Positions 8,039 through 37,506 of a DNA stretch of 37,506 bases are shown piece by piece. This DNA is from a virus. How positions within the stretch are numbered: position 1 is the first letter of the stretch; the number at the start of each line of letters is the position of its first letter. Made by a program: the position numbers and the translations under genes. Where the stretch lies: positions 1-37,506 of IMG/VR virus record IMGVR_UViG_3300032236_001327. One strand, written 5' to 3'. A model generated the notes under the pieces. It worked only from the letters and a program-made list of their open reading frames with translations, did no database searches and was not told where the DNA came from.

Positions 8039-11000
8039 TGCCTGACATTCAACAGATTACTGACAAGGATGAGACGTTCATTGGCGTTGTTTCGCGTCTT
8101 GATCCGCAGATGGTTGATCCGAACTACGTCAGTCAGGCTGTAAATCGCAAGTTTGAGTCGAAGCTCATCAGCAACCGATGGGGAATCATCCAGCCCAAGT
8201 GGGGGGGGAAGTGGAATACCAACCGGCAGTCGTTCAGCGTTTCAAAAGGTGGTACGTTGTGGACTAGGTCGTCTCCAGGCGCACAGATTCCGGCTGGTAC
8301 TGTTGTTTGTTCTGATCCTGATCCCTCTTACAACACGCTGATTGTCAAGAACGGTGCGCGAGTGGTGAGTGACGACAATACGAACTGCACGCTCAACACT
8401 GCGACGTATTCTTGGACAGGATCAAGCCCAAGCACTTGGGGACTCACTTACTACACTGCCACTACCAAGTTTACGGACATTCTCGGGATGATGCAGTACC
8501 GGGATCCGCAGACTGGAAACAGCGCACTGATTGTCGCCACAAATGAGGTCAGAACGTCCGACGGTGGGCAAGGAAAGGTCTATCTTGTCCGGCCTAACTC
8601 GTCGCACTTGGAGATACCGCTGAACGGTTGGGACATCTACGGTCCTGTTAAGATGATCCAGTGCGACAACGCAATCGCCATGCTGCGACCGTTCTCGGAT
8701 CGTTACTACTTCAAGGGAAGCGCGATCAACGCAACGAGCGACTACGTTACGCTGAACGTCATTCCTGATCTGGCGACTGGAAATCGTGTCATCATCGGTC
8801 AGGTTGATCCAGCTCCTCCAATCTACACGGCTGCATCGTTTTCCAGCGGTCAAGGATTCGGACTTTGGGTTAACGTTAACGGAAACAAGGTATCATTTTA
8901 CACGTCTGAAACGGCTGCAAGAACTGGAGGAGCAACTGGAAAGGTTGATCTTGCTGCTTCGTCGTCGTCTTACCGTTACTTTATCCAGCGACAGAACAAT
9001 ACGACTGGTAACAACATTGTTCAGCCTGAACTGGATTTTGAGAATGGCTCCTATCCGCTGTTGATGCAGTCGAATGGGACTTCCAAGATTGCAATCGTTG
9101 CTGGATTCAACCGTGTTGCGAGCAGTCTGTTCATTTCAAGCGCAGATTCGGTTGCGAACACGATCACGGTTTATAACCACGGGTTTGTTCCTGGAGACAA
9201 GGTTGTAATCTCGTCTGCAAGCGTTTCAGATTTTAACAAGACCTACTACGTCTACCCGGTTGATGCCAACACGCTTAAGTTGTTCTACGGAGCAACGGCT
9301 GAAACGGATTCGCTTGTAAATGCCAATCGCGCAACGGCAAAGGCTACTGTTGCAAAGGTTACTGCGACTCCTTCAGTTCCTCCTGTAGTTGGTGGAGTGT
9401 TTACTACTGGAACTTACCCGGTGCCATCTGCAAATGGTGGTGCTGGATACGATTCTGCTCCTGCTGTCACATTGTCTGGAGGCGGAACTCTTGCTACCGC
9501 GCACGCTGTTGTCAGTGGTGGACAAGTTACTGCAATCGTTGTTGATACTGGTGGAAATGGTTACACTGGAACTCCAGCCATTTCTGTTGCTGCTCCTGCT
9601 CAGTACGGAATCACGGCTGTCACAGTCACTGCAAACGGTGCTGGATACAACGTCACTCCTGCTGCCACTTGCGCATCTGTCACCGGAAGTGTTCTGACTG
9701 TTTCGCTTGGAACTGGAAACGAAAGTGATTCTGTCAGCAGCATTGCGGTATCAAGCCCAGGTTACATTGCGTCTTCTTCAGACGTTGATGTCTCGATTGA
9801 TTTCCCGTCCACTGCTGTAAACGTATACGCTTCGTTCACTGGGACGATTTCCAAGTTTGAGGCCAGTGGAATGCCAATTCCAGCAGGACGTGAAGGTTGC
9901 TATTTCCAGAACAGACTGTTGATGGTCTACGGCTTTGACATGCTGGCTGTGTCTGATGTTCTGGATCCGCTTCACTACTCGCCAATCATCAACGAGTTTA
10001 AGCTGAACTCAGGTTCAAATGACAAAGTCGTCGCAGTATACCCGTTCAATCAAACGACGCTTATCGTCTTCAAAACCAACTCGATTCTCGCGATTGAGAA
10101 CCTTTATGGGGATCTCTCATCTGTGCGACTTTCTGAGGTCACACGCGAGTTTGGTTGCATTGCTCCTCTTTCTATTGCTGGCACTGGGTCTGACGTTGTT
10201 TTCCTGACTCAACGCGGAGTCGCTTCACTTAAGCAGACAGAATACGGAATCAGTCAATCTGTTGTCGTTCCGATTTCCAACCCAATTCAGCCTGAGATTG
10301 ACGACATCGACAAGGCATTGGCGTACAAGGCCGTTGGAACGTACTTCGACAACCGCTACTTGCTTTCTGTTCCTTTGAACGAAGGGAATGGAACCAATCA
10401 GCGCACGTTGGTATTCAACTTCTTAAATCAGGCTTGGGAAGGTTACTGGGAAGGAAGTCTGCTTCTGCCTCGCTACTTTTCTCGCGTCAGTTTGTACGGA
10501 TCTGACTATCTCGCTTGGTCTGATGAGAGTGGATTCGTTCATTACTTCGACAAGCAGGCTTGGGCTGACCGAAAGATTGACGGCACTGAGTTGCAGGTCT
10601 CAACGCGCATCGAATTCAGAGGATACACTTTTGGAACTCCAGTCCACAAGCAATACACAGGAATTGAGATCGAACTGAATTACAGCAATCCGAGGTACTC
10701 GTTTGTTGTGAATCTGGATGGCGTGAACGAGGTAATGACGCTTGCGAGCAACCAGACTCAGTCTCGCACGACCTACTTCAATTACGGTGTTCCAGACTAC
10801 GTCACAACGAACGTGAACGACGATTTCTGGTCGCCATACCGCAAGGACTACTCTTGGCAGCCGGGCCTTCGTTGCGGGAACAATGGAGTTCGAGTGAACC
10901 AAAGGCAGGTGATTGTCTCCAAGTACCGACTTCGCAGACACGGCAATACGATTCAGCCTGTTTTGACTTCCGATCAGGGGAATGTGGAAGTCTCATCAAT

Positions 11001-26195: not shown

Positions 26196-26228
26196 AACCC
26201 GCTCCGGTTATCAGCCAGGGCGGGTTTT
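26196..26228 (+). terminator. Rho-independent terminator of the rightward unit
   Basis: Stem AACCCGC (26196-26202) / GCGGGTT (26220-26226) followed by TTCT. It lies 18 bases after the primase-helicase stop and is the only good terminator after the replication block. Confidence 0.8.
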
Positions 26229-26284
26229 CTGTTCTCCAGTTGACGCTGTTCTACTTGGCTGGAGATTAATGGCTCGGAAACAGC

Positions 26285-26317
26285 AAAAACGCCAAACAGC
26301 GGTGAAACTGTCTGGCG
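26285..26317 (-). terminator. Rho-independent terminator of the leftward unit
   Basis: On the minus strand a 10-bp stem (CGCCAGACAG with CTGTTTGGCG, one G-U pair) with an 8-nt loop is followed by TTTTT. It lies 15 bases after the stop of the last leftward gene. Together with the plus-strand hairpin at 26196 it insulates the converging units. Confidence 0.85.
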
Positions 26318-26331
26318 CGTGTGTTGCGGAG

Positions 26332-26649
26332 TCAAATTTTATTCATTTTCCTTCGTCTTTGGCCGACCGTTGAACGATCCAGTCCAAACTCGTCAGCAAT
26401 CACTTGGTCTTTGTACGCCCAGTTAGCACGTTCCCACCATGGTTTAGGTGCTGCTGGCTTGTTCCAAGGATCAATATCAGCGTCTTGACGTGTAAAAAAT
26501 GGAGTCAGCGTGAAACCCAGGCACGTTGGCTGGATTTTGAACGATGACTTGTTGTTTGGACTCCATAAAACCTTGTTACCAAGTCGTGTGACTGTTCCTC
26601 CGTAAGCTGCTTTGATGTCTTCCACTGAAGGAAAGTATGGGCAGTTCAT
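26332..26649 (-). CDS. Hypothetical protein with C-terminal HTH-like end (105 aa)
   Basis: Last gene of the leftward unit; its start overlaps the upstream stop (ATGA). A soluble protein with a Trp/Pro-rich middle (DIDPWNKPAAPKPWWERANW) and a C-terminal helix pair (YKDQVIADEFGLDRSTVGQR) resembling a helix-turn-helix recognition unit with basic residues after it. It may bind DNA, but one HTH-like match in a short protein is weak evidence. I do not recognise the family. Confidence 0.65.
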   Translation of the reverse strand: MNCPYFPSVEDIKAAYGGTVTRLGNKVLWSPNNKSSFKIQPTCLGFTLTPFFTRQDADIDPWNKPAAPKPWWERANWAYKDQVIADEFGLDRSTVGQRRRKMNKI

Positions 26650-26864
26650 GCTTTTCCTTTTCGCTTGTTGTATTTTGCAAGTTGTTGAGCCGATTTGCGT
26701 TCAATGTAGTCCGCTTCCTCGTGCAATCCTCTGCGTCTCAACCACTGCTTGTACTTCAGATTGAACTCGTCAGTAGAAAAACCTCTTAGGTCATAGCCAG
26801 GAGCAGTCTCATCATGCTTGAACCTTGTGCTGATTCCTTTTGGTTTGTATTGGGATTCACTCAT
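26646..26864 (-). CDS. Small basic hypothetical protein (72 aa)
   Basis: A very charged, Lys/Arg-rich soluble protein. The centre (FSTDEFNLKYKQWLRRRGLH) and the following helix (EEADYIERKSAQQLAKYNKR) suggest two amphipathic helices. It is coupled to the next gene by an ATGA overlap. Function unknown. Confidence 0.6.
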   Translation of the reverse strand: MSESQYKPKGISTRFKHDETAPGYDLRGFSTDEFNLKYKQWLRRRGLHEEADYIERKSAQQLAKYNKRKGKA

Positions 26865-26878
26865 AGTTCACTGCAGTT

Positions 26879-27022
26879 TTAATTGGGTGAACGATTAATC
26901 TCATCTCTTAGCTCGTCCATTGCTTGTTCAATGTCCGCAGCAGATTGGAATATCGACCAACAAATCGTCAGCGCAGACGCGACAATCACGCTCACGAAAA
27001 TTGCTACTTGGTAGAAGGTCAT
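26879..27022 (-). CDS. Small single-pass membrane protein (47 aa)
   Basis: A 47-residue protein whose ATG overlaps the pyrophosphohydrolase stop (ATGA). Residues 5-24 are strongly hydrophobic (QVAIFVSVIVASALTICW), followed by an acidic amphipathic helix (DIEQAMDELRDEIN). The topology is one membrane span with a charged tail. It could be an envelope-acting early protein or a lysis regulator; there is no direct evidence for either. Confidence 0.65.
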   Translation of the reverse strand: MTFYQVAIFVSVIVASALTICWSIFQSAADIEQAMDELRDEINRSPN

Positions 27023-27462
27023 CGGGCACCTCCATTGACAAGATACTGTTCAAGCTGAGCAGGCTGGTAACTGGGTGATTTGATCACTTTGCCAGTGGAA
27101 GACTTCACAACGTAGCTTCCTGATCCTTGTTTCACGATTAGACTTCCAACAGGAGCCTTTTGGATCTCACTTTCAGACCACAATTTGCTCATGTTAGAGC
27201 GGTGGACCTCCTCAAAAGCCAGGTCAATTGTTTCTGGGCTAAATCCTGCCGCTACCGCCGTGCCATAAGTGACATAGAGCAGGTCTACAATGCCATCCAG
27301 CAAGTCACGCATGCTTTGAGCGTCTGCAATCTCGCGTGATTCCTCGTTCTGAAGCTCGTAACGCAGGTAAATTGTCTCTGCGCTCGGCATTCGTTGACAG
27401 TTTGGAGTCGATTGACCCATGCACTGCATGAATCCTCTTACAAGTGATAGTTTGTCTGTCAT
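27019..27462 (-). CDS. MazG/PRA-PH-like nucleotide pyrophosphohydrolase
   Basis: A 147-residue protein. The first 95 residues match the all-alpha NTP pyrophosphohydrolase pattern: LRYELQNEESREI supplies the acidic ExxE-type metal ligands, and MRDLLDGIVDLLYVTYGTAV the second acidic helix (DxxxD). AFEEVHRSNMSKLW then gives the third helix. The C-terminal 45 residues (VVKSSTGKVIKSPSYQPAQL) resemble the tail seen in phage homologues. Such enzymes hydrolyse NTPs or (p)ppGpp-like nucleotides. The longer frame to 27552 adds unrelated sequence, and the ATG at 27462 overlaps the upstream zinc-ribbon gene by ATGA, which decides the start. Confidence 0.8.
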   Translation of the reverse strand: MTDKLSLVRGFMQCMGQSTPNCQRMPSAETIYLRYELQNEESREIADAQSMRDLLDGIVDLLYVTYGTAVAAGFSPETIDLAFEEVHRSNMSKLWSESEIQKAPVGSLIVKQGSGSYVVKSSTGKVIKSPSYQPAQLEQYLVNGGAR

Positions 27463-27572
27463 TTTGTCTTTTTTTGTTGTTTCGGAATTGGAAGAGAGCA
27501 CACCAGTCCGCCCCGTTTGGTGCGAAGCAAGAGTTGGCCACAGACTGGGCACTTTGGATTGGGTTTTTTCAT
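27459..27572 (-). CDS. Tiny zinc-ribbon protein (37 aa)
   Basis: A 37-residue basic protein: KCPVCGQLLLRTKRGGLVC gives CxxC and a later cysteine, ending in a Lys/Gln-rich tail. The stop overlaps the pyrophosphohydrolase ATG (ATGA), strong support for such a short frame. With only three cysteines the zinc site may be incomplete or shared in a dimer. It probably binds nucleic acid or a host protein; this is inferred. Confidence 0.6.
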   Translation of the reverse strand: MKKPNPKCPVCGQLLLRTKRGGLVCSLPIPKQQKKTK

Positions 27573-27665
27573 CTGTTGGAAAGTGAATCCCGTTTTTATG
27601 CGGTTACGGGAAAGGGTACATAAATGACCAGCCAATCTAGCCGCCGCAATTACCCTGAAATCAAA

Positions 27666-29570
27666 TCAGACCGCCAAAACTGGAGCCATGAGATCTGAAT
27701 CGTTCAATGCTTGCAAGTTTTTTAGCTTTTTTTCTAACGCATTGGCCACCTGGGCCTCGATTGTTCCGTCGGCGTACAGGATTTTCTGGATTGAATTCTT
27801 CCCTCCAGCTCTGTGAACACGGCCCAAGGTCTGAACGAGTTCGATTGCTGAGTAACTTGGAGAAACCAGAGCCAGTCTGGGCCGATCCTTGACGCAATGC
27901 AGGCTAACTCCAACGCCACCTGCTTGAATGTTGCACAGGATCAACGCAGAACGGTCAGCTTGGAACTCTTCAATGGCCTGCTGTCGTTCAAACGGCGTCT
28001 GACCACCTTCAATTCTTCCGATGCAACTCACGGTAGCCTTCAGAGCGTCGTTTAGTGCCTGGATTGTCTCGGTGAAACAGCAGAAAACAGCGACTGACAT
28101 GCCTTGTTCAACAGCGTCTTCCACCATCTCAACGATTGCAGGGATTTTGGCTGCTTCCGATAGCTGTCTGGCCCTCAAAAGGGCTACTAGCGGGCTGTCA
28201 GCGTCTGTTTTTTGCTTCTCGTTGACTCGTTGGATGACTTCTTGGGCTTCTTTGTATGCCTGATTGATCTCTTTTGTGGCTTTCAGGCCGACTGGGATGA
28301 GTTTTGTCTCGATATGGGTCTCGGGGAATGCAGATCCTAGCTCTTTGACCCTGATTCTAGTGCCTTTTGACCTAAAAATCTCTCTGGAAATCTGAGCCAG
28401 GTTATCTTGATTGCCTCGGAATTCCAATCCACCGAATCTTCCCTCCTTGCAGCCATGATTTTTTGACCATTGCCAGTGTTCCGAGGGATTCCGAAACAGT
28501 CCCAGAGCAAAACCGATGGCTTTCATCTCAACCGGGCTTGTTGCTGCCGTCGCTGACAACAACAGAAGCGGGATGTTTGCTCGTTTGGCTTCGATTAATA
28601 GCTTGGAATTCTGGCTTGAATTGCCTTTGCAACGATGCACTTCGTCGAAAACCAGCAACGTGCCGTTTGGGATTATCCAAACCCACTGCTTTTTACCTCG
28701 TGAATCAGTGATCCACTTTCCCCACTGAGTCGTGCCACGTCTAACTAGCTCGTAATTGATACAGTCTAGCCTGATTCCAAAATGAGACGCTGCTTTTCTC
28801 CAGGATGGAATCACAGCCAGTGGACAGACGACCAGAGCCGGACTTCCAAGGATCTGAATCGCCTTGCAGGCCTTGTACGTTTTGCCAGTTCCGACTTCAC
28901 TTGCATCCAGGCAGACCTTGTGACGACGAATTGAACCAACGATGCGGCTTGTGGACAGCGTTTGCCACGGGAGCAATCCGGTTGAGTCAATTTCAGGATC
29001 CGAAACGCCGGTTGCATCGTTTTGAATTGGCTTTTGGCAATCTGTTGGCTTCAGAGCAGTCCAGCGTTTTGCAATCCAGCGACAGGTTGTTGAGCATTTG
29101 CCGACTGTGATTCCAGCTTCAGCCAGTTTCGACTTGTGTGACTTGTAAACTGACCAAAAAGGGTGCCCTTCAGGGACCGAAGCGACTTCCAGATACTTAG
29201 GGCCGCTATGGGTTTCGACTCGTTTAGGAGCAGACCAGTCCAAGCCCAAATTCGGATCGTTTTGGACTTTGGCAGCTTCCTGTTCCCTGAGTTGACGCTC
29301 CAAAATATCTCCCTGGGGATCGTTGTAATGAGGAATTCCAAGATCCTTGAGCTGGGTAAGCCGATACCTAGAGCAATATTCCCACGCTTTTAGGATTTGA
29401 GCCGATCCCCAGGTTCCGATTGACCGACACAGATCCTGGCCGACTGCTTGGTGAACCTTGCCCCAGCCGACCCCGTTTAGGGTTTGTGCTTGGTCAGGAT
29501 TGGCTTCTGTCAACCGCCGAACTCCCGTTTCTAACCTGGGTAACAAGTCGTTAGCGTTCATTGTCGTCAT
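27666..29570 (-). CDS. SF2 (DEVH-box, SNF2-like) helicase
   Basis: A large helicase, 634 residues from the ATG at 29570; an in-frame ATG at 29603 and another at 29561 are alternatives. Counting from 29570, about 200 N-terminal residues precede the ATPase: motif I SEVGTGKT (about 224-231), motif II DEVH (about 309-312), motif III LLSATA, and in the second RecA domain LCNIQAGGVGVSLH and QTLGRVHRAGG (motifs V and VI). This is the Snf2/SSL2-like branch of SF2 often found in phages. It probably remodels DNA during replication or displaces proteins. It is the only large gene in the leftward unit. Confidence 0.85.
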   Translation of the reverse strand: MTTMNANDLLPRLETGVRRLTEANPDQAQTLNGVGWGKVHQAVGQDLCRSIGTWGSAQILKAWEYCSRYRLTQLKDLGIPHYNDPQGDILERQLREQEAAKVQNDPNLGLDWSAPKRVETHSGPKYLEVASVPEGHPFWSVYKSHKSKLAEAGITVGKCSTTCRWIAKRWTALKPTDCQKPIQNDATGVSDPEIDSTGLLPWQTLSTSRIVGSIRRHKVCLDASEVGTGKTYKACKAIQILGSPALVVCPLAVIPSWRKAASHFGIRLDCINYELVRRGTTQWGKWITDSRGKKQWVWIIPNGTLLVFDEVHRCKGNSSQNSKLLIEAKRANIPLLLLSATAATSPVEMKAIGFALGLFRNPSEHWQWSKNHGCKEGRFGGLEFRGNQDNLAQISREIFRSKGTRIRVKELGSAFPETHIETKLIPVGLKATKEINQAYKEAQEVIQRVNEKQKTDADSPLVALLRARQLSEAAKIPAIVEMVEDAVEQGMSVAVFCCFTETIQALNDALKATVSCIGRIEGGQTPFERQQAIEEFQADRSALILCNIQAGGVGVSLHCVKDRPRLALVSPSYSAIELVQTLGRVHRAGGKNSIQKILYADGTIEAQVANALEKKLKNLQALNDSDLMAPVLAV

Positions 29571-29739
29571 GGGAATCGGTGGGTTGGTGACACTGTTCAA
29601 CATGCTCGCATCTCATGCAGAATGGGTTCCACTTATTGTCAGTGGTGAACTCATGGCAAGGCGGACGGCAGTCTTCTATCGTTAGCTGATAGAACGAGGC
29701 CAAGTCACAGACACAGGGTGATTTTTTGGGTAAACTCAT
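29551..29739 (-). CDS. Small cysteine/histidine-rich protein (62 aa)
   Basis: A 62-residue protein whose ATG overlaps the endolysin stop (ATGA) and whose end overlaps the helicase start. It has eight cysteines arranged CxC, CRPPCH, and NPFCMRC with EQCH, enough for one or two zinc sites. It is likely a zinc-finger-like early protein. The frame extends upstream to 29769, but coupling and composition favour 29739. Confidence 0.65.
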   Translation of the reverse strand: MSLPKKSPCVCDLASFYQLTIEDCRPPCHEFTTDNKWNPFCMRCEHVEQCHQPTDSHDDNER

Positions 29740-30068
29740 TTGAGAATCAGGGTGATGTTTCGACGCCAATTCCGATTTCCAACAGGATCGGCTAAGGGTG
29801 GGCAGTATCTGTCAGCCAGGAACAAGAGGAACGAGCTAGGCTTGCCTGCTTTTATCCAGCGATTGTGGGTGTTTTGGATCGTCGTGATGCAGACCTTGCG
29901 TGGGTTTTGGGTTTGAACGCTGAGGATTCCGTATGGGTGACGTGTCTTGTGACCGCCTTCGACCCGGAATATGGCATCTGCAATCCGATTGGCCTCGGAG
30001 GCAGGCAATGCAGCCTGAATGCAGCGAATGGATGCGAACAAGGCTAGGGAGAACAAGAGGGGTTTCAT
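29736..30068 (-). CDS. Secreted lysozyme-like endolysin
   Basis: A 110-residue protein with a clear N-terminal signal peptide (basic start, hydrophobic residues 4-15, probable cleavage near residue 20 after QAA). The mature part reads IADAIFRVEGGHKTRHPYGI, with a glutamate in VEGG at the place of the catalytic acid of lysozyme/SLT-type folds, and ends with RYCPPLADPVGNRNWRRNI, as in small phage muramidase-like enzymes. Two cysteines may form a disulphide, fitting an exported protein. It would cut peptidoglycan from the periplasm. It is far from the holin-like genes and on the other strand. Family assignment is moderate. Confidence 0.65.
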   Translation of the reverse strand: MKPLLFSLALFASIRCIQAALPASEANRIADAIFRVEGGHKTRHPYGILSVQTQNPRKVCITTIQNTHNRWIKAGKPSSFLLFLADRYCPPLADPVGNRNWRRNITLILK

Positions 30069-30250
30069 TGGGTGTAAAACTTCGCCAGTCTAAATGCTTC
30101 ACTTAGTGGACCGAACCAATACCTATACACTCTTGGGTGTTTTGTAGGAATCTGAGCACGCCACAAGCCGCAAGGAAGCTGGCGGAAAATGATTCTGAGA
30201 CCGCGTTCCAACGCAATGGACGACAGGTGACGGGAAAGAGTGGAGTTCAT
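30065..30250 (-). CDS. Small basic hypothetical protein (61 aa)
   Basis: The stop overlaps the endolysin ATG (ATGA). A basic protein rich in Arg and aromatic residues (GLRIIFRQLPCGLWRAQIP, RVYRYWFGPLSEAFRLAK). The pattern of short strands then a helix suggests a small nucleic-acid-binding or host-targeting protein. I do not recognise it. Confidence 0.6.
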   Translation of the reverse strand: MNSTLSRHLSSIALERGLRIIFRQLPCGLWRAQIPTKHPRVYRYWFGPLSEAFRLAKFYTQ

Positions 30251-30256
30251 GGGGGT

Positions 30257-30487
30257 TTAGGAAGCCAACTGCTTGGCCAGATCGTAATCTCGGTGGAGAA
30301 TTCCAACAGAATATGTAAATGCTTTGAGCAAGTGACTTTTGGCGCAGTCGTATTCCTGTTTTGCAATGCAGTTCAAAGCATCATTTAAGCACAAGTCATA
30401 ACTGGACAGCATTTCGGAATTCTTGTTCCTGTTTCTAATAACAAGACCAAGCAGATAGGTGCAATTTTCCTGAGTTTTGGTTGTCAT
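30257..30487 (-). CDS. Small helical hypothetical protein (76 aa)
   Basis: A soluble, helix-rich protein with four cysteines (NCTYLLGLVIRNRNKN, LCLNDALNCIAKQEYDCAKS). The paired-helix pattern with Ala and Tyr around residues 37-56 is TPR-like in look only. It is spaced six bases from the next gene. Function unknown. Confidence 0.6.
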   Translation of the reverse strand: MTTKTQENCTYLLGLVIRNRNKNSEMLSSYDLCLNDALNCIAKQEYDCAKSHLLKAFTYSVGILHRDYDLAKQLAS

Positions 30488-30518
30488 ATTATGGGACTGG
30501 AATGGTTGTTGTCGGTGG

Positions 30519-30695
30519 TTACTTGTTCACGAGTTCAATTCGGATGGATCCGTCTTCCTCGGATACCCAAAGTTGGGCACCGTTTTCCATCATCTCATCA
30601 GTGATCCGTGATTCCAAAATGAAGTATGCTTTTTCAAGCGATTCGGCTTTGATTTTGCCGAATTCGGCGTCGGTAGCGTAGGAGTATTGGTTCAT
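30519..30695 (-). CDS. Small conserved-type phage protein (58 aa)
   Basis: An acidic protein: an N-terminal helix pair (EFGKIKAESLEKAYFILES) followed by a two-stranded end (GAQLWVSEEDGSIRIEL). This helix plus 'W-V-DGxR' strand layout seems common in small early phage proteins of unknown role. The frame is open to 30740, but the upstream part is basic and unlike the rest, so ATG 30695 is preferred. Confidence 0.65.
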   Translation of the reverse strand: MNQYSYATDAEFGKIKAESLEKAYFILESRITDEMMENGAQLWVSEEDGSIRIELVNK

Positions 30696-30778
30696 GGGAT
30701 GGGAATGGTTGGTGCTTTTGTTTTTCCGCTGACAGGGCATCCCAGTGATTCCAGGAGGCCGTGGTCAAGGGAATGGGC

Positions 30779-30967
30779 TTATTCGGTTTCTACATTTCCG
30801 CAGGGCGCGACAACTCGCACAGGATCCGATCCTGCAAACCATGTTTCGCAGTCGAAATCATTGGCCAGGGCATAGCCGTCATCGTCCCAAAAAATGTAAA
30901 CCCATTGGCATACCTTTCGGGCTTTGGCTTGTGCTGCGGACGTCGCGGAAGAGAGTGTGGAGTACAT
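30779..30967 (-). CDS. Small hypothetical protein (62 aa)
   Basis: A soluble protein with a short helical start and an aromatic, acidic centre (CQWVYIFWDDDGYALANDFD). Another frame on the same strand (30790-31059) overlaps it; this one is preferred because it reads like a folded domain and has an ATG at 30967 between well-packed neighbours. Function unknown. Confidence 0.5.
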   Translation of the reverse strand: MYSTLSSATSAAQAKARKVCQWVYIFWDDDGYALANDFDCETWFAGSDPVRVVAPCGNVETE

Positions 30968-30992
30968 AGAATGAATGGGTTGTGGGTGAAAA

Positions 30993-31265
30993 TCAGGAGA
31001 CGAAAACATGTGCCATGGTCCCATCCGAAAGCATGCCTGAAACGAACGCACGGCCCCAAGAGTTTTCAGACGCCGGAATGGAGTACTCTTTCTCGTCTTC
31101 CAAAAGGAACTTAGCCACGAGAGCGCGAACAGCTTGGCGATGAACCTCGTCTCCTGACATCTCGTGCGGATAGGGGATCGTGATACTACCGCGCTTGCAC
31201 ACGGCTTTGATTCTGGAGCATCGGAAGTAAGTGGCGGGCAGGTACTTTGTTCGGATAGCTTGCAT
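30993..31265 (-). CDS. Conserved phage protein of the QAIRTKYLPAT type (90 aa)
   Basis: A 90-residue protein starting MQAIRTKYLPATYFRCSRIK, then GSITIPYPHEMSGDEVHRQA and a C-terminal GxLxDGTxAHVF strand. This pattern recurs in many phages and phage-like islands, always with unknown function. The start at 31265 is well supported by an upstream AGGAG, one of few good Shine-Dalgarno sites here. The longer frame to 31358 is not needed. Confidence 0.75.
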   Translation of the reverse strand: MQAIRTKYLPATYFRCSRIKAVCKRGSITIPYPHEMSGDEVHRQAVRALVAKFLLEDEKEYSIPASENSWGRAFVSGMLSDGTMAHVFVS

Positions 31266-31330
31266 GGTATGGTTTCTCCTGTGGTTTGGTTTCTCTCCTG
31301 AATTCGCCCCCTCCGAAAAGGGAGCGCGGT

Positions 31331-31741
31331 TCAAGGGAGTGGAAGGGGCCTCATCCACAAGACACGAAACTGCTTGTAGGCCATCTTGGCCCAGCCGGGA
31401 TTTCCACGTTTATGGGTGGCGACGAAATATCCGCTCACCTCACTTGACTCAGTCCACCCAGCCCGCTCGCGAACGGTAGGCGCAGTTTTTCGCTTTGGGT
31501 GGTGAATCCACGCACCACTTCCACAAAACCTGACAGGGGCCGAGATCAGCTTGTGTGTGGTTGGGCGAAACCGAGCTGGATAAAGTTCGTTTGGTGTTCC
31601 AACCCACCATTGGCACTCAACAGGGTGATACTTTTCAAGTCCTTCGCCCAAATGGCGGGCAACGGTTGTGGGTGATTGAACCTGAATTGCGACTAGGTTT
31701 TTCATGGACTTGGAGGTGGATACGGTGGTGGTGTAGTTCAT
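31331..31741 (-). CDS. Hypothetical protein (136 aa)
   Basis: A basic protein with a Thr/Ser-rich N-terminus and then a domain rich in Trp, His and Pro (HPVECQWWVGTPNELYPARF, GYFVATHKRGNPGWAKMAYK). Alternative ATG at 31705 (MKNLVAIQVQ) would remove the low-complexity start and may be the true one. It could be a small nucleic-acid-binding early protein. I do not recognise it. Confidence 0.5.
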   Translation of the reverse strand: MNYTTTVSTSKSMKNLVAIQVQSPTTVARHLGEGLEKYHPVECQWWVGTPNELYPARFRPTTHKLISAPVRFCGSGAWIHHPKRKTAPTVRERAGWTESSEVSGYFVATHKRGNPGWAKMAYKQFRVLWMRPLPLP

Positions 31742-31771
31742 GGTCTGGATTTGTGTTAGGGGTTAAGGTGA

Positions 31772-32104
31772 TCAGGCGGGAATGATGTCGTGAAGCATCT
31801 TGGAGGGTACCGGATTGCCAGTGTCGGACCAATTGGCGTGGGCCTTGTATTTGTGCCCGCCGCCTTGCCAGCTGCGGCCCCAGCTTGAGTAGCTGAGTCG
31901 CACAGCGCGATCCCCGATGCGAGCAGGGACCACATCAAAGCAAAAACGGCTGGCATGGCGCACGGGAGCGTGAACATAGGTCTGCCCAAATTTCCGGGTG
32001 GATGTGACGTACCCAATCATGTAGCCGACGATTTGAGCAGGGGTAAGGGGAGCGGTGGTAGTGGTGGCGTTCATGGAAGTGGAGCTCATAGAAGTGGAGT
32101 TCAT
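31772..32104 (-). CDS. First leftward gene, hypothetical (110 aa)
   Basis: The first gene of the leftward unit. Three in-frame ATGs at 32104, 32089 and 32074 are 15 bases apart and lie in tandem repeats, giving a Met/Ser/Thr-rich N-terminus. The folded part begins near TPAQIVGYMIGYVTSTRKFG and continues with aromatic, basic sequence (SYSSWGRSWQGGGHKYKAHA). The ATG at 32104 overlaps the stop of a 21-codon upstream frame (32101-32166, minus strand), a possible leader peptide. Function unknown; position suggests very early expression. Confidence 0.55.
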   Translation of the reverse strand: MNSTSMSSTSMNATTTTAPLTPAQIVGYMIGYVTSTRKFGQTYVHAPVRHASRFCFDVVPARIGDRAVRLSYSSWGRSWQGGGHKYKAHANWSDTGNPVPSKMLHDIIPA

Positions 32105-32356
32105 GGAAGCAGATGTGGTGAGGGTGAGGGTGATGAGTTTCGCTTTCGACAGGAACAATTTGCCATGATTGCTCGCGAGAGTCTATAAATTTTTATCAAA
32201 TAGTGAATGGTGAACAGGTAACTTACTGGGAATGAACAAGTTGCGAGCGAAAGATTTTTTGTGCGCGGGGAGAAACTGGTGAGGGACTTCCAGTCAATCC
32301 CGTGTGTGTTGCGGGCAGGCACGCGATACCAGGTGAAGATTGTTGGAAGAAAGGTC

Positions 32357-32386
32357 TTGCTTTTTTTGAGTAAGTTGGCTTAAAAT
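32357..32386 (+). promoter_or_regulatory. Possible sigma70-type promoter for the structured RNA
   Basis: TTGCTT (32357-32362), an 18-base spacer and TAAAAT (32381-32386). The hexamers match the sigma70 consensus only in part. Transcription would start inside the first strong hairpin. Listed because it is suitably placed before the hairpin-rich segment. Confidence 0.25.
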
Positions 32387-32728
32387 CCGCGCACAGCGCG
32401 GAAATTCCAGTGGCACGGCTAGTGACACGTTAGCTCGTGAGAGCGTAGGAATTGGAAGTCAACTATTTTGACCGGGCGCTCTTGTATCGCTGCCCGGCGG
32501 AAAAATTGAAAGCCTGTAGCTAACGCCTGTTGCTCCACCGGGGAACAAAGGTGGATTGTGTTTAAAACCAACCACTTACTACGCTTGTTTCGGAGTCGCT
32601 ACGCTCCTTGGGACAGGCGTCCCCCCAGGCTCACTGCGTTCGCGGGAGATGTTATCTCCCCCCGCACGGGCTAAGGCCCTGCCGAATCGCTCATTTTGGG
32701 AAAGCGATCGGCCGCTAACGCGTGCGGG
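32386..32728 (+). ncRNA. Candidate structured noncoding RNA / hairpin-rich element
   Basis: At least seven perfect or near-perfect stems in about 340 bases. They are: 32386-32402 (7 bp, loop ACA); 32403-32453 closed by AATTCC/GGAATT and holding GCTC-GTGA-GAGC with a GNRA tetraloop; CCGGGC/GCCCGG (32472-32497); TCCACC/GGTGGA (32534-32555); a long stem at 32582-32619 (CGCTTGTTTC/GGGACAGGCG with G-U pairs around GGAG/CTCC); GGGAGAT/ATCTCCC (32644-32660); and CCCGCACG/CGTGCGGG (32661-32728) enclosing two smaller hairpins. The GNRA loop and G-U pairs favour an RNA acting on the plus strand. I cannot match it to a known RNA family. Confidence 0.4.
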
Positions 32729-32857
32729 CTTTGGGGCTAGAGTACAAGTATTCGCACGTTGGTGTTCCACCCTGGAGTATTAGTTACTAGTGGTCTGGAA
32801 ATTAGTAGTTTGAGATTTATCATTTTTTACTTGCGATTCTGGAAGAGTTCCTAGTGA

Positions 32858-33601
32858 TTGTTCCACGTGGAACACTTGCCAGCACAGGAATCTCAAAACC
32901 CGACGATTCACCTTACCTTGTACGGTTACGGGGATGTGCATCCGCTTAGTTTGATGAGTTGGGTTGGGCTAACGGCGGAACTGGCGAAAAGTACGGACTG
33001 GAAAGGTGACATGCGGCTCGTGCGCGAGGATGCGCTTATCTCTCGTTCGCGTTGTAGGGCTACTAAATGGTTTCTTGACTCTGGAGCGGACGTGTGGATC
33101 CAAATTGACCATGACATCGAGTTCCAGCCGGAGGATATTCTAGAAATTGCGCGAATTGCACACGCGAGGAATGCGGTTGTGTGTATTCCGTATAGTTGCC
33201 GTGCGCTTCCTCCAAAACCGGCTTTGAGAGTGAAAGTGGGTGCGAAGCCTTTGGAAGATGACCCTAGGCTAACACCAATAACTCTTTTTGCTTCCGGTTG
33301 TGTCGCGATTCCAGGCGAGTTGCTGGAACACTGTTTGGACGAGCTGAGTAAGGAGGAGATGGATCTTCCTTTGGGGATTCAGTGGTGCGACGACACGCTC
33401 ACGGGTGGACAAATCCCTACGTTGTGGATGCCGTTTGCTGCGGAGGTTCGGGATCGGCTGGAATACCTGTCGGAGGATTATGCGGCAAGTTATCGGTTAG
33501 CGGCTTGTGGTGCGGAACAGCTTGTTTTTGAACCTCGGACGCCTCTCAAACACTGGGGGGATTTTCCGTTTAGAATGGCAGGATTGGAGATAAAAAACTA
33601 G
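32858..33601 (+). CDS. Glycosyltransferase-like protein (GT-A type)
   Basis: A 247-residue protein. The first strand (IHLTLYGYGDVHP), the helix after LVREDALISRSRCRATKWF and the acidic motif IQIDHDIEF (DHD at 84-86) match the nucleotide-sugar-binding half of GT-A/GT2-type glycosyltransferases. The domain begins at residue 17, so the only suitable start is the TTG at 32858, preceded by GGAAGAG at ten bases; the next in-frame Met is inside the fold. Related-looking genes next to phage terminases are known. It may modify phage DNA, virion or host surface; the substrate is unknown. It is the first gene of the rightward unit and begins within the parS-like palindrome. Confidence 0.7.
   Translation: MFHVEHLPAQESQNPTIHLTLYGYGDVHPLSLMSWVGLTAELAKSTDWKGDMRLVREDALISRSRCRATKWFLDSGADVWIQIDHDIEFQPEDILEIARIAHARNAVVCIPYSCRALPPKPALRVKVGAKPLEDDPRLTPITLFASGCVAIPGELLEHCLDELSKEEMDLPLGIQWCDDTLTGGQIPTLWMPFAAEVRDRLEYLSEDYAASYRLAACGAEQLVFEPRTPLKHWGDFPFRMAGLEIKN
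32859..32874. promoter_or_regulatory. parS: parS-like centromere site (perfect palindrome)
   Basis: TGTTCCACGTGGAACA is a perfect 16-bp palindrome and fits the bacterial chromosomal parS consensus TGTTNCACGTGNAACA exactly. Host ParB proteins bind such sites. The site overlaps the TTG start codon of the next gene and encodes its N-terminus MFHVEH. No ParA or ParB gene is visible in the phage. Confidence 0.8.
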
Positions 33602-33604
33602 CTT

Positions 33605-34210
33605 ATGGCGAAGGCGAAGGCAGTTTCGCTCTACACAGTAGCCAAGGTACTGGGAATCTCGTCCGAAAAAGTTGGAAAAGCCCTAACGAATGACCCAAGG
33701 CTAACGCGGGAAGAGTGTGCCGAAATACAAGCCAAAGCACTAGAGCTGGGCTACAAGAAAGGCACACCTGGGCTTCATCATAATTCAGTATTGTCGCACG
33801 AGAAAGCCGCTATCGCAATCGAAGGCGAGTTCTTGGGCAAGCCAAAGGCCCAAATCTCACGCGAGATGGGAGTTAGCTCGGCAACCGGAACAAAGTATAT
33901 CAAAGGACTAGAGGTTCCCCTTGAATACCCCGAATCAGAGGAAGATTGGCGATCGCAAGTCACTCATTTCATGGAGGTTGCGTTGTGGAAAGGCACAAAG
34001 CGACTAGCCCAGTCAGGAATGGAAGAAATGCAAGCGCACCAAATTCCCATCTCTGCCGGAATCCTAACGGATAAATTGGCAATGATGAAGGGCCAGCCTA
34101 CCAGTTTTTCGGTACAAGTTCACCAGACGATTAATCACAGGGAGTTCCTGGACGAGCTAAAGGGTGCAAAGCAGGCACAGGTGATAAACGCGGACGGATC
34201 GGAAGCGTGA
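33605..34210 (+). CDS. Terminase small subunit with LacI-type helix-turn-helix
   Basis: A 201-residue protein directly upstream of TerL. Residues 9-52 (VAKVLGISSEKVGKALTNDP followed by ALELGY) match the LacI-family DNA-binding headpiece closely. A second HTH-like segment (about 80-101, KAQISREMGVSSATGTKYIK) is more like that of usual terminase small subunits, and the C-terminal region with AGILTDKLAMMKGQPTSF resembles TerS proteins that form the packaging ring. TerS recognises the packaging site and activates TerL. The LacI-like headpiece is unusual for TerS and could give extra sequence recognition or autoregulation. Confidence 0.7.
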   Translation: MAKAKAVSLYTVAKVLGISSEKVGKALTNDPRLTREECAEIQAKALELGYKKGTPGLHHNSVLSHEKAAIAIEGEFLGKPKAQISREMGVSSATGTKYIKGLEVPLEYPESEEDWRSQVTHFMEVALWKGTKRLAQSGMEEMQAHQIPISAGILTDKLAMMKGQPTSFSVQVHQTINHREFLDELKGAKQAQVINADGSEA

Positions 34211-34268: not shown

Positions 34269-36056
34269 ATGAAACAAGACACAACCAAAGGGGGGGAGGG
34301 GGTTGGCAAGCTGGATGACGACCGCGAGGCGACGAGTTCCCTAAACCAAAAAATTTCCACAAATGACTCGTATGCAAGGGTTTGTCCAACTTGTGGCAAG
34401 TCGTTTGAAGCGCAGCGCGAGCGTGGTGTTTTTTGTGGTGCGCCGTGTCAGTTGAAGTGGTGGGCTGACCAGCCTGAGCATCCGGTTATACCTAGGATTG
34501 ACCACAAGTTGACGAATGCGGCTGCTTTGAGGGAAAAGCGGATCCGGTTGTTGTTGTTGGAGAAGGGAGATCCGTACAGTTTTGGGTACATCCCGGATCA
34601 CTGGGAGGTGGCGAACAAGTATTGGCCGGACACATCTGAGATGTTGGTGTCTGGTGGAAATCGTGCAGGCAAGACGTTATTTGCGGCTCGGAAGGTTGTT
34701 GAGACGCTCTTAAGTGGCGAGAACAAGAACGTGTTGTGTTGCCATACGAGCAATGCGACGAGTGTAACTGTTCAGCAGCCAGCGATTTACAACTACTTGC
34801 CGGTGGCATTGAGAGCGACCAAGAAGGGCAAGATTCATTACCTGAACTATTCGAGGAAGAACGGGTTTACGGACGGGTCGTTTATTTTGCCGAATGGTTC
34901 ACGGTGTGACTTTCTGAACTACACGCAGAGTGAGAACACGATTGAAGGGCGTGAAGCGGATTTGATTTGGTGTGATGAGTTGGTGCCTCAGAGCTGGGTG
35001 GACACGTTGAGGTACCGTTTGGTTACACGAAGAGGCAAGTTTTTGGTGACTCAGACTCCGTTGGAAGGAGTGGCGTCGATATACAAGGAATTTGTAGCTG
35101 GCGCGTCTGTATTGGAGTGGGCACCAGGTCAGTTGTTGGAAGGCAAGTCAGGGGTAATTGGGTGGCCGGTTGGAAAGGCTCCAAGGGTGATGGACCGCAA
35201 GGAATTGGGCCGAAAGACGGTGTTCTTCTTTAGTGAAGACAATCCGTACAATCCTTGGGACGAGATGAAGTCGAAGTTGATTGGTGCTCCGATGGGCCAG
35301 GTTTTGACTCGGGCGTATGGCTGGGCGACTGACAATGTTGGTAAGGCGTTTGCGCGATTTCGGCCTGAGACTCACTGTGTGGATGTAAGCAAGATGGCTG
35401 ATGGTGGAACACTGTACATGGTATGTGACCCGGCTGGTGCTCGTAACTGGTACTGTTTGTGGATGGTGGTTTACGAGGACGGAAAGAAGGTTGTGGTCAG
35501 GGAATTTCCTGATTTTGCGGGGTATGGAGAGTGGGCTTTGCCGAGTGAAAAAGCGGATGGCAAGGCAGGTCCAGCGCAGACATTGAGTGCAGGACGTTCG
35601 ATTTCTGAGTATCGGGAGTTGTTTAGACAGATTGAAAATGAGATTGGACGTGGTGAACCGATCATGCGGCTGATTGATCCACGGGCAGGTGGAAGTCCGA
35701 CGATTAGTGCTGAGGGTGGAACGACGTTGATTGATCTGTTGGCTATTTCAACGGAGGAAGATGAAGGAATGGCGTTTGTTCCTGCGCCTGGAGTTCCAGT
35801 GGATCAACGAACAGCGACGATTAACTCGGAATTGAGCTATGACTCAACGAAACCTGTGAGCATGTTGAACGAGCCTAAGCTGTATATTTCAAAGGATTGC
35901 CATAACCTAATTTATTGCCTTTCTGAGCATACCGGAAAGGATGGCCAAAAGGGTGCGACAAAGGATGCCATTGATTGTCTTGGCATGTTGTTGGCGTCCA
36001 AGCTGGAGCATATCGGAGCTGGTGGCTTTGATACCATTGGCGGCGGTACTTATTGA
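34269..36056 (+). CDS. terL: Terminase large subunit with N-terminal zinc-finger-like extension
   Basis: A 595-residue packaging motor. Residues 39-60 contain CPTCGKSF and CGAPC (cysteines 39, 42, 56, 60), a zinc-ribbon-like extension. The ATPase follows: Walker A SGGNRAGKT (128-136), Walker B DLIWCDE (231-237) and a coupling motif near TQTPLEG. The nuclease half has VCDPAGARN, LIDPRAGG and KDAIDCLGML, the three acidic clusters of the RNase H-like headful or cos nuclease. An AGGA precedes the ATG. A G-rich run lies at 34290-34302 in codons 8-12. The portal gene follows after 11 bases. Confidence 0.95.
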   Translation: MKQDTTKGGEGVGKLDDDREATSSLNQKISTNDSYARVCPTCGKSFEAQRERGVFCGAPCQLKWWADQPEHPVIPRIDHKLTNAAALREKRIRLLLLEKGDPYSFGYIPDHWEVANKYWPDTSEMLVSGGNRAGKTLFAARKVVETLLSGENKNVLCCHTSNATSVTVQQPAIYNYLPVALRATKKGKIHYLNYSRKNGFTDGSFILPNGSRCDFLNYTQSENTIEGREADLIWCDELVPQSWVDTLRYRLVTRRGKFLVTQTPLEGVASIYKEFVAGASVLEWAPGQLLEGKSGVIGWPVGKAPRVMDRKELGRKTVFFFSEDNPYNPWDEMKSKLIGAPMGQVLTRAYGWATDNVGKAFARFRPETHCVDVSKMADGGTLYMVCDPAGARNWYCLWMVVYEDGKKVVVREFPDFAGYGEWALPSEKADGKAGPAQTLSAGRSISEYRELFRQIENEIGRGEPIMRLIDPRAGGSPTISAEGGTTLIDLLAISTEEDEGMAFVPAPGVPVDQRTATINSELSYDSTKPVSMLNEPKLYISKDCHNLIYCLSEHTGKDGQKGATKDAIDCLGMLLASKLEHIGAGGFDTIGGGTY

Positions 36057-36067
36057 GAAGGATCAAC

Positions 36068-37506
36068 ATGGAAGAGATGCCTGACATGCAGAATTTCAAG
36101 AGCGTTGCGTCGTTTCAGCGGCGTGATCTGGACCATGCGAACGATGCGATGTCGCGTGTTGGACCGGAGCCTGAGATTGGTGCGTTGATTGAAGAACTGC
36201 GACGTGCAGCGACGGACTACGGCATTGGTTCGCGTGTCCAGCGTGTTGAGAATACGAGGTACTGCCGGTGGACTGGACAGAGTGAAGACGGAAAGAAGTG
36301 GAATGAGAACGGGCCGAACAAGCCTGCGTTCCCTTGGGATGGAGCCAGTGACACTCGGATCCCGTTGGCGGACGAGGTGATCAACAACATGGTGGATCTG
36401 TCCACGACAGCGTTCTGGCGGTCCATGATTCATGTTGCTCCGGTGAATTTTGGGACGATGGACAATGCAGTCACGATGCACAGTCTGATGGACTTCGTGA
36501 TGTCGCAGAAAATGTACTATGGGATGACCCGCGAGGTAGAGTTGATTGCCCAGTACTTGTGGACGTATGGCTGGGCTGGATGCCATGTAACTTGGCAGCA
36601 GGAGATTTCGCAGAAAGAACAGCATGTCTCGATGGACCAGATCATCCAGATGGCCCAGCAGAGTCATCCTGGAAGTGTTTTGTCAGATCTACCGAACCTG
36701 ATTCAGAACCCGGAAGCAGACGATCAGGTTTCGGAGTTGTTGATTGGAGCGTTTCCTCATTTGAAGAAGCGACGTGCGCTGAAGGCTGTTAGGGATTTGC
36801 GGCGTGAAGGCGAATGTGAGTTCCCGGTGCCTTATGTGAGCAAGAATACGCCTCAGATTGCTGCATTGTGTCCTTGGGACGAGCTGGCTTTTCCTCCTGA
36901 AACTACGGACGTACAGAGTGCGCGAGTGATCTTCCGGCGTGTGTACATGACCGAGATTGAGGTCCGCCAGAAAGTTGCAACGGATGAATGGGACGAGGAA
37001 TGGGCGCAGGAAGCCATCAATGCGATGGGCCGGTTTTCCAACTACTCGGACTACACGTACACGATTGGCTTGACCAACAATGCACTGATCAATCGTCAGC
37101 ATTTGATTGAGATTTGCTACGCATACCAAAAGGCCATTGATGAAGATGGTGTTCCGGGTGTGTATTGCACGGTGTTCTGCCCTCAAGTTGGAGACAAGTG
37201 GGGCAAGTTTGAGCTGCTGGAATACAATCACGGTCAATATCCGTTTGTGGTCTGGCGAGCTGAGATGATCCACCGGAAGATTACGGAAAGCCGTGGTGTT
37301 CCTGACATTTGCTCGACTTGGCAGAATGAGGTCAAGGCACAGCGGGATTCGATCCAGGATTACACGTCGATTTCCACGCTTCCACCGTTGCAAGTTCCAA
37401 AGACTCGCGGTGGAAACTTGAAACTAGGTCCGGCTGTTCAGATTCCTGTGCTGCGACCCGGTGAGATTAGCTGGATGCAACCGCCTGCTCGCGATCCGAA
37501 TGTGGC
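36068..37506 (+). CDS. Portal protein, N-terminal part (continues at base 1)
   Basis: Starts at an ATG preceded by AAGGA, 11 bases after TerL, and runs open to the end of the window. It continues in frame at 1-823 for a total of 712 residues. The N-terminal region has the portal pattern seen in P22-type and related phages: a helical start, then FPWDGASDTRIPLADEVINN (about residues 88-107). Next come a long helical segment (YYGMTREVELIAQYLWTYGW) and the wing/clip region with KITESRGVPDICSTWQNEVK near the junction. The order TerS-TerL-portal-scaffold-capsid confirms the call. Confidence 0.9.
   Translation, partial: MEEMPDMQNFKSVASFQRRDLDHANDAMSRVGPEPEIGALIEELRRAATDYGIGSRVQRVENTRYCRWTGQSEDGKKWNENGPNKPAFPWDGASDTRIPLADEVINNMVDLSTTAFWRSMIHVAPVNFGTMDNAVTMHSLMDFVMSQKMYYGMTREVELIAQYLWTYGWAGCHVTWQQEISQKEQHVSMDQIIQMAQQSHPGSVLSDLPNLIQNPEADDQVSELLIGAFPHLKKRRALKAVRDLRREGECEFPVPYVSKNTPQIAALCPWDELAFPPETTDVQSARVIFRRVYMTEIEVRQKVATDEWDEEWAQEAINAMGRFSNYSDYTYTIGLTNNALINRQHLIEICYAYQKAIDEDGVPGVYCTVFCPQVGDKWGKFELLEYNHGQYPFVVWRAEMIHRKITESRGVPDICSTWQNEVKAQRDSIQDYTSISTLPPLQVPKTRGGNLKLGPAVQIPVLRPGEISWMQPPARDPNV
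37384..37506. repeat. Terminal overlap, copy 2 (circular closure)
   Basis: Exact copy of bases 1-123. The portal frame enters this copy and leaves it in phase, so only one of the two copies should be counted in the genome length (37,383 bp). Confidence 0.95.

Follow-up and report, generated by a model that had tools for sequence, protein, structure and literature searches.

A probable structured RNA of about 345 nt upstream of the packaging genes in a small clade of uncultured phages

The closest described systems and the genome setting

Large ornate RNAs of phages or bacteria such as GOLLD and ROOL are represented in Rfam, and the packaging RNA of phi29 is a phage RNA linked to packaging. 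Phage HK022 carries the put sites putL and putR, which are about 70 nt long with two stems, are present twice and lie in the early operons (PMC9378689). The non-RepA parABS mycobacteriophages RedRock, Alma and LadyBird carry parA, parB and repeated 8-bp parS motifs (PMC7157519).

The locus described here lies in the virus record IMGVR_UViG_3300032236_001327, the whole of which (37,506 nt) is the window analysed, and its product is very probably a structured RNA about 345 nt in length. By analogy with put, this would be a structured nascent RNA that opens a long phage operon and acts without coding; unlike put, it is some 345 nt long, is present in a single copy and heads a packaging unit, has no known sequence relation to put, and departs in both length and fold from the two-stem RNA of about 70 nt near a promoter by which put is recognised. 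It may resemble the RedRock-type noncoding-RNA origin, a noncoding region of about 400–500 nt beside a partition site, but the parA, parB and repeated 8-bp parS of that system were not found here (window ORFs scanned). With GOLLD and ROOL it shares the form of a long multibranched RNA without an ORF, and with the phi29 RNA a position tied to packaging genes; it differs from the former in that neither the region nor the homologues scanned match any Rfam 15 family above the gathering threshold, and from the latter in having no Rfam match, in being accompanied by an ordinary large terminase (TerL), and in being absent from most TerL relatives. The sequence-only reading had likewise recognised no family, and, judged against Rfam 15, the RNA is a new family. 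Weak sub-threshold Rfam matches were judged to be chance, and no tRNA or tmRNA was found.

The two ends of the window are identical over 123 bp (1–123 and 37384–37506), from which the genome is taken to be complete and circular, with a length of about 37,383 bp (37.38 kb); the record ends cut inside the gene after terL. Genes for a scaffold, major head protein, large terminase, RecT, RusA, exonuclease and primase-helicase were found. No TerL relative was present in the GTDB genomes searched for a host, and among annotated phages there are no DNA-level relatives and only remote protein relatives. The RNA region is housed in the sole intergenic gap of more than 210 nt in the gene map used (32159–32857, 699 nt). 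From this gap the chosen genes run rightward across the record ends to 26177, a same-direction run of about 31 kb, or about 83% of the complete genome, with the RNA at its head; a leftward gene block occupies 26332–32158. Where the rightward and leftward units converge, the gap holds a match to the Rfam CyVA-1 RNA that is barely over threshold (26226–26302, minus strand). Features of the region and of the genes that follow it are given in Table 1; the product of the GT-A-like gene has no Pfam, PHROG or PDB match.

Table 1. Coordinates of the RNA region, its elements and the downstream genes in the window
Feature	Coordinates	Strand	Remarks
Promoter-like sequence TTGCTT-18 nt-TAAAAT	32357–32386	+	Predicted; aligned upstream of all complete homologues
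5′ palindrome TCCGCGC-ACA-GCGCGGA	32386–32402	+	From fold; seen across homologues
Three-way junction	32403–32453	+	Holds 5 of 6 double-change pairs
P2 of junction	32403–32408/32448–32453	+	Stem covaries
P2a of junction	32410–32416/32422–32428	+	Stem covaries
P2b of junction, GUGA loop	32433–32436/32441–32444	+	Stem covaries
Variable domain	32456–32533	+	About 56–70% identity to relatives, which have another fold
Hairpin UCCACC/GGUGGA (32534–32555), then conserved UUGUGUUUAAAACCAACC segment	32534–32573	+
Long stem CGCTTGTTTC/GGGACAGGCG, three G-U pairs	32582–32619	+	Invariant except one mismatch in L082
Hairpin GGGAGAU-GUU-AUCUCCC	32644–32660	+	Invariant across the close group (n = 4)
3′ closing stem	32661–32728	+	Compensatory change in inner stem
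parS consensus TGTTCCACGTGGAACA, chromosomal type	32859–32874		Perfect; at start of downstream gene
Putative GT-A-like gene	32858–33601	+	DHDIEF motif; conserved; directly downstream of RNA
Putative small terminase subunit (terS)	33605–34210	+	Assigned by position; no family match
Large terminase subunit (terL)	34269–36056	+	PHROG match, E 2.5e-11; 185 IMG/VR relatives

Homologues, fold and covariation

From the IMG/VR stretches related through TerL (185, of which 80 were kept), together with pattern scans and context that added L006, L007, L008, L087, L020, L043, L044 and L098, eleven distinct sequences were found to carry the RNA region, namely the window and ten others (L008 does not differ from L007 over the RNA part shown, and L044 is cut at its 5′ end). 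In all of them it has the same position and orientation, directly before the GT-A-like gene, then terS and terL. The close relatives that have the region are L002, L082 (the same as L005) and L083 (the same as L004), with 81–83% identity; the seven divergent members form the groups L006/L007/L087 and L020/L043/L044/L098. Homology of the divergent groups is based on the common promoter-like sequence, palindrome, motif and synteny, together with weak nhmmer matches (E about 0.001–0.002 for L006–L008). These members retain the promoter-like sequence, the 5′ palindrome and a hairpin with UGUGUYUA after it, the middle domain being largely replaced. The region had been described as lying between divergent units. 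This holds for the window, but the upstream helicase of L006, L020, L043 and L087 is co-directional with the RNA; relative to these the helicase block is inverted in the window group, with the place and direction of the RNA unchanged. Other TerL relatives inspected have no such RNA, and replication genes or small ORFs occupy the position; so far the RNA is confined to one small group of related uncultured phages.

The sequence-only reading had placed a dense cluster of stems at 32386–32728, including a long stem with G-U pairs, a multibranch unit and a GNRA-capped stem. The stems are present there, and the region folds better than its shuffled versions (MFE −141.4 kcal/mol against a shuffled mean of −123.2, z = −3.9, none of 100 shuffles being as good). 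In the window's copy both strands beat dinucleotide shuffles and the complementary strand folds equally well; over all copies the better z-score belongs to the plus strand in 8 of 11 sequences, a majority that fits the rightward promoter-like sequence and is not by itself strong evidence of strand. The multibranch unit is the three-way junction, whose stems covary, and the long G-U stem was also located, with a hairpin GGGAC-AGGC-GTCCC that could compete with it. The GNRA-capped stem, GCTC-GTGA-GAGC, covaries as well, but its loop is not conserved, being GGA in L082 and shortened in L083.

Compensatory changes in aligned relatives, the check that had been proposed for a structured RNA, are present. 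Across the 64-pair structure of the close group (n = 4 sequences), 98.8% of pair cells are kept and six pairs are changed on both sides, three in P2 and one each in P2a, P2b and the 3′ inner stem (32681–32685/32708–32712, A-U to G-C), so that a structured RNA is not refuted. Slid controls gave no such pairs and shuffles reached at least six once in 500, although the shuffle figures are not probabilities, since some helices were picked after viewing the sequences and there are only four of these; more weight is given to the slid controls. Helices that never vary, of which there are several, are left untested by the count, and for the invariant hairpin at 32644–32660 the pairing is neither supported nor tested. 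The hairpin at 32534–32555, whose right arm is Shine-Dalgarno-like, covaries across all three homologue groups (its third pair is A-U, G-C, U-A or C-G), and the segment after it is common to all homologues. Hand-picked stems, this hairpin and the 8-bp stem of L020/L043/L098 among them, covary strongly in the divergent groups, which is supporting evidence only because the arms were chosen for their pairing. The compensatory changes of the close group and the covarying stems of the seven divergent relatives both favour the large structured RNA that had been suggested.

Sequence conservation within the close group is uneven. Positions 32551–32700 are 88–100% identical to the close relatives, whereas the downstream gene is about 80% identical (about 64–94% when taken in steps of 50 nt) and, for L082 and L083, the leftward gene only 12–52%. 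Positions 32456–32533 fold differently in the relatives, as though by exchange of a peripheral domain. Ahead of the promoter-like sequence, a block at 32251–32300 is 94–98% conserved in the close group and was not seen in the divergent groups; it contains ACTGG-N10-CCAGT and 13 nt that are complementary to 32655–32667, and is possibly a regulator site or a leftward control region.

Reading frames in the region are broken by indels and it is therefore treated as non-coding, in keeping with the earlier remark that it has no good frame. A 75-aa ORF (32556–32783) starts after the Shine-Dalgarno-like arm, but it is interrupted by a frame-breaking deletion in L002, and its frame is lost in other homologues despite well-conserved nucleotides among L006, L007 and L087. 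Its start, (U/G)UG-UGU-YUA, is retained across homologue groups. This retention, with the AAGGNG in the right arm, speaks for a translational switch in which the hairpin would mask a Shine-Dalgarno sequence before the GUG or UUG start (UUG/GUG-UGU-UUA/CUA, M-C-L...) of a short leader peptide; such a switch is nonetheless very unlikely, given that several homologues lose the frame within a few codons and that indels occur between near-identical sequences.

The 5′ end and possible roles of the RNA

The sequence TTG-N-TARAAT, with a spacer of 18–19 nt, immediately precedes the palindrome in every complete copy (in the divergent groups the spacer is 19 nt and the hexamer TAAAAT or TAGAAT); the consensus promoter scanner did not list the window's version. 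The window has a single copy of the palindrome, as do the relatives' records save for one match with two mismatches, and the window's copy is one base pair longer than the TCCGGC-ACA-GCCGGA of the divergent relatives. The palindrome is abutted by the −10-like hexamer, and a start 6–7 nt past it would lie within the ACA loop. The palindrome may thus straddle the transcription start and be either a 5′ hairpin or an operator, and the start at 32386 given earlier may be some 7–10 nt too early for the RNA itself.

The sequence-only reading had offered a long 5′ leader, an origin or a pac site; the first is the one that we favour, and the other two have no direct support. We put it at a little short of an even chance that the region encodes a cis-acting structured 5′ leader of the late rightward transcript. 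The RNA would be transcribed as part of the late mRNA (late, packaging and structural genes), and would act in cis on the elongating polymerase or on transcript stability and translation; in its likeliest form, suggested by put, it would modify the elongation complex so as to cross about 31 kb. The conserved fold, the compensatory changes, the loss of frames, the conserved promoter-like sequence and the fixed linkage to GT-terS-terL are directly seen. There are several further considerations. First, the RNA is fixed before GT-terS-terL despite the inverted helicase block, which argues for cis action over an origin or a free RNA. Second, no terminator-like site was found downstream of the RNA, and with the long same-direction run this makes an effect on elongation seem the most likely, on the HK022 put analogy. 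Third, the RNA fills the only large gap, at the head of that run, and 32551–32700 is more conserved in the close group than the flanking genes. Against a leader, most TerL relatives have no RNA, so that operons of this kind can generally do without it; the palindrome is single-copy, as against two put sites in HK022; with the hexamer abutting the palindrome, transcription may miss part of the 5′ hairpin; and the C-over-G bias, a sign of Rho sites, is not exceptional. A Rho site was rejected for the same lack of bias, though the 3′ half is A-poor.

The strong ends with a rapidly replaced middle domain, and the drop in close-group conservation past the 3′ stem, would also suit a free RNA of about 345 nt whose end is made by processing or termination at the 3′ stem and which acts in trans on phage or host factors. 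This seems unlikely: there is no terminator-like site downstream, the linkage to one operon is fixed, and the conserved single-stranded segment has no complementarity beyond 7–9 nt in the sequences examined.

The parS consensus (PMC4368675, PMC7022226) lies 130 nt downstream of the RNA and is also present in L002 and L082, with one mismatch in L083; the L087 contig has a one-mismatch copy inside a gene (record position 8939). Non-integrating mycobacteriophages replicate via a parABS-proximal noncoding RNA (PMC7157519), and with this precedent an RNA-primed replication origin, or a region for extrachromosomal maintenance, that has the parS as its partition site is counted as a real alternative, albeit an improbable one. 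No ParA, ParB, repressor or integrase is present among the window ORFs scanned, the phage encodes its own primase-helicase, a skew switch is absent at the site, and the divergent groups have no parS beside the RNA. With neither ParA nor ParB among those ORFs, host ParB may be the reader of the parS. We see only a small chance that the RNA is a new autonomous class with exchangeable middle domains, by which host polymerase would read nearly the whole 31-kb late unit in one pass, with possible use of host ParB via the captured parS.

The location upstream of terS and terL, and the clusters of CTAG repeats that in several relatives lie past the RNA and before the next gene, could instead point to a DNA element such as a pac or cos site with inverted repeats that terminase reads. 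This is quite improbable, as the window-group stems retain G-U pairs, which are A-C mismatches on the other strand, the plus strand folds better in most homologues, and the element is missing from relatives with 70–75% identical TerL. The CTAG clusters of the divergent relatives include L098:1412–1470 and L007:4098–4175.

Significance and other noncoding elements

A fold backed by covariation, together with a fixed place in the genome, is available for few structured RNAs of phages. As the RNA heads a single long gene run, one deletion can test a role in late expression, and an antiterminator or origin RNA would add to very short lists.

Other noncoding elements were seen in these searches. 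In L010, L011, L014, L022, L031, L045 and L105, phages without the RNA studied here, an ssb-like ORF and a small ORF flank a different conserved hairpin, CCCCTAGGAG...AAAACGCCTCCTAGGGG, some 400 nt upstream of the GT-like gene. The wider pattern scans brought in L089, L091, L092, L094–L097, L099, L180–L182 and L184–L186, which are unrelated sequences and were rejected as homologues. L185:12400–13101 is long and purine-rich, shows numerous apparent stems, matches nothing in Rfam and resembles another large ornate RNA; L180, L181, L182, L184 and L186 have in common a block starting CTTGCATAAAATCCGAGACACAG, several hundred bases long, conserved and apparently non-coding.
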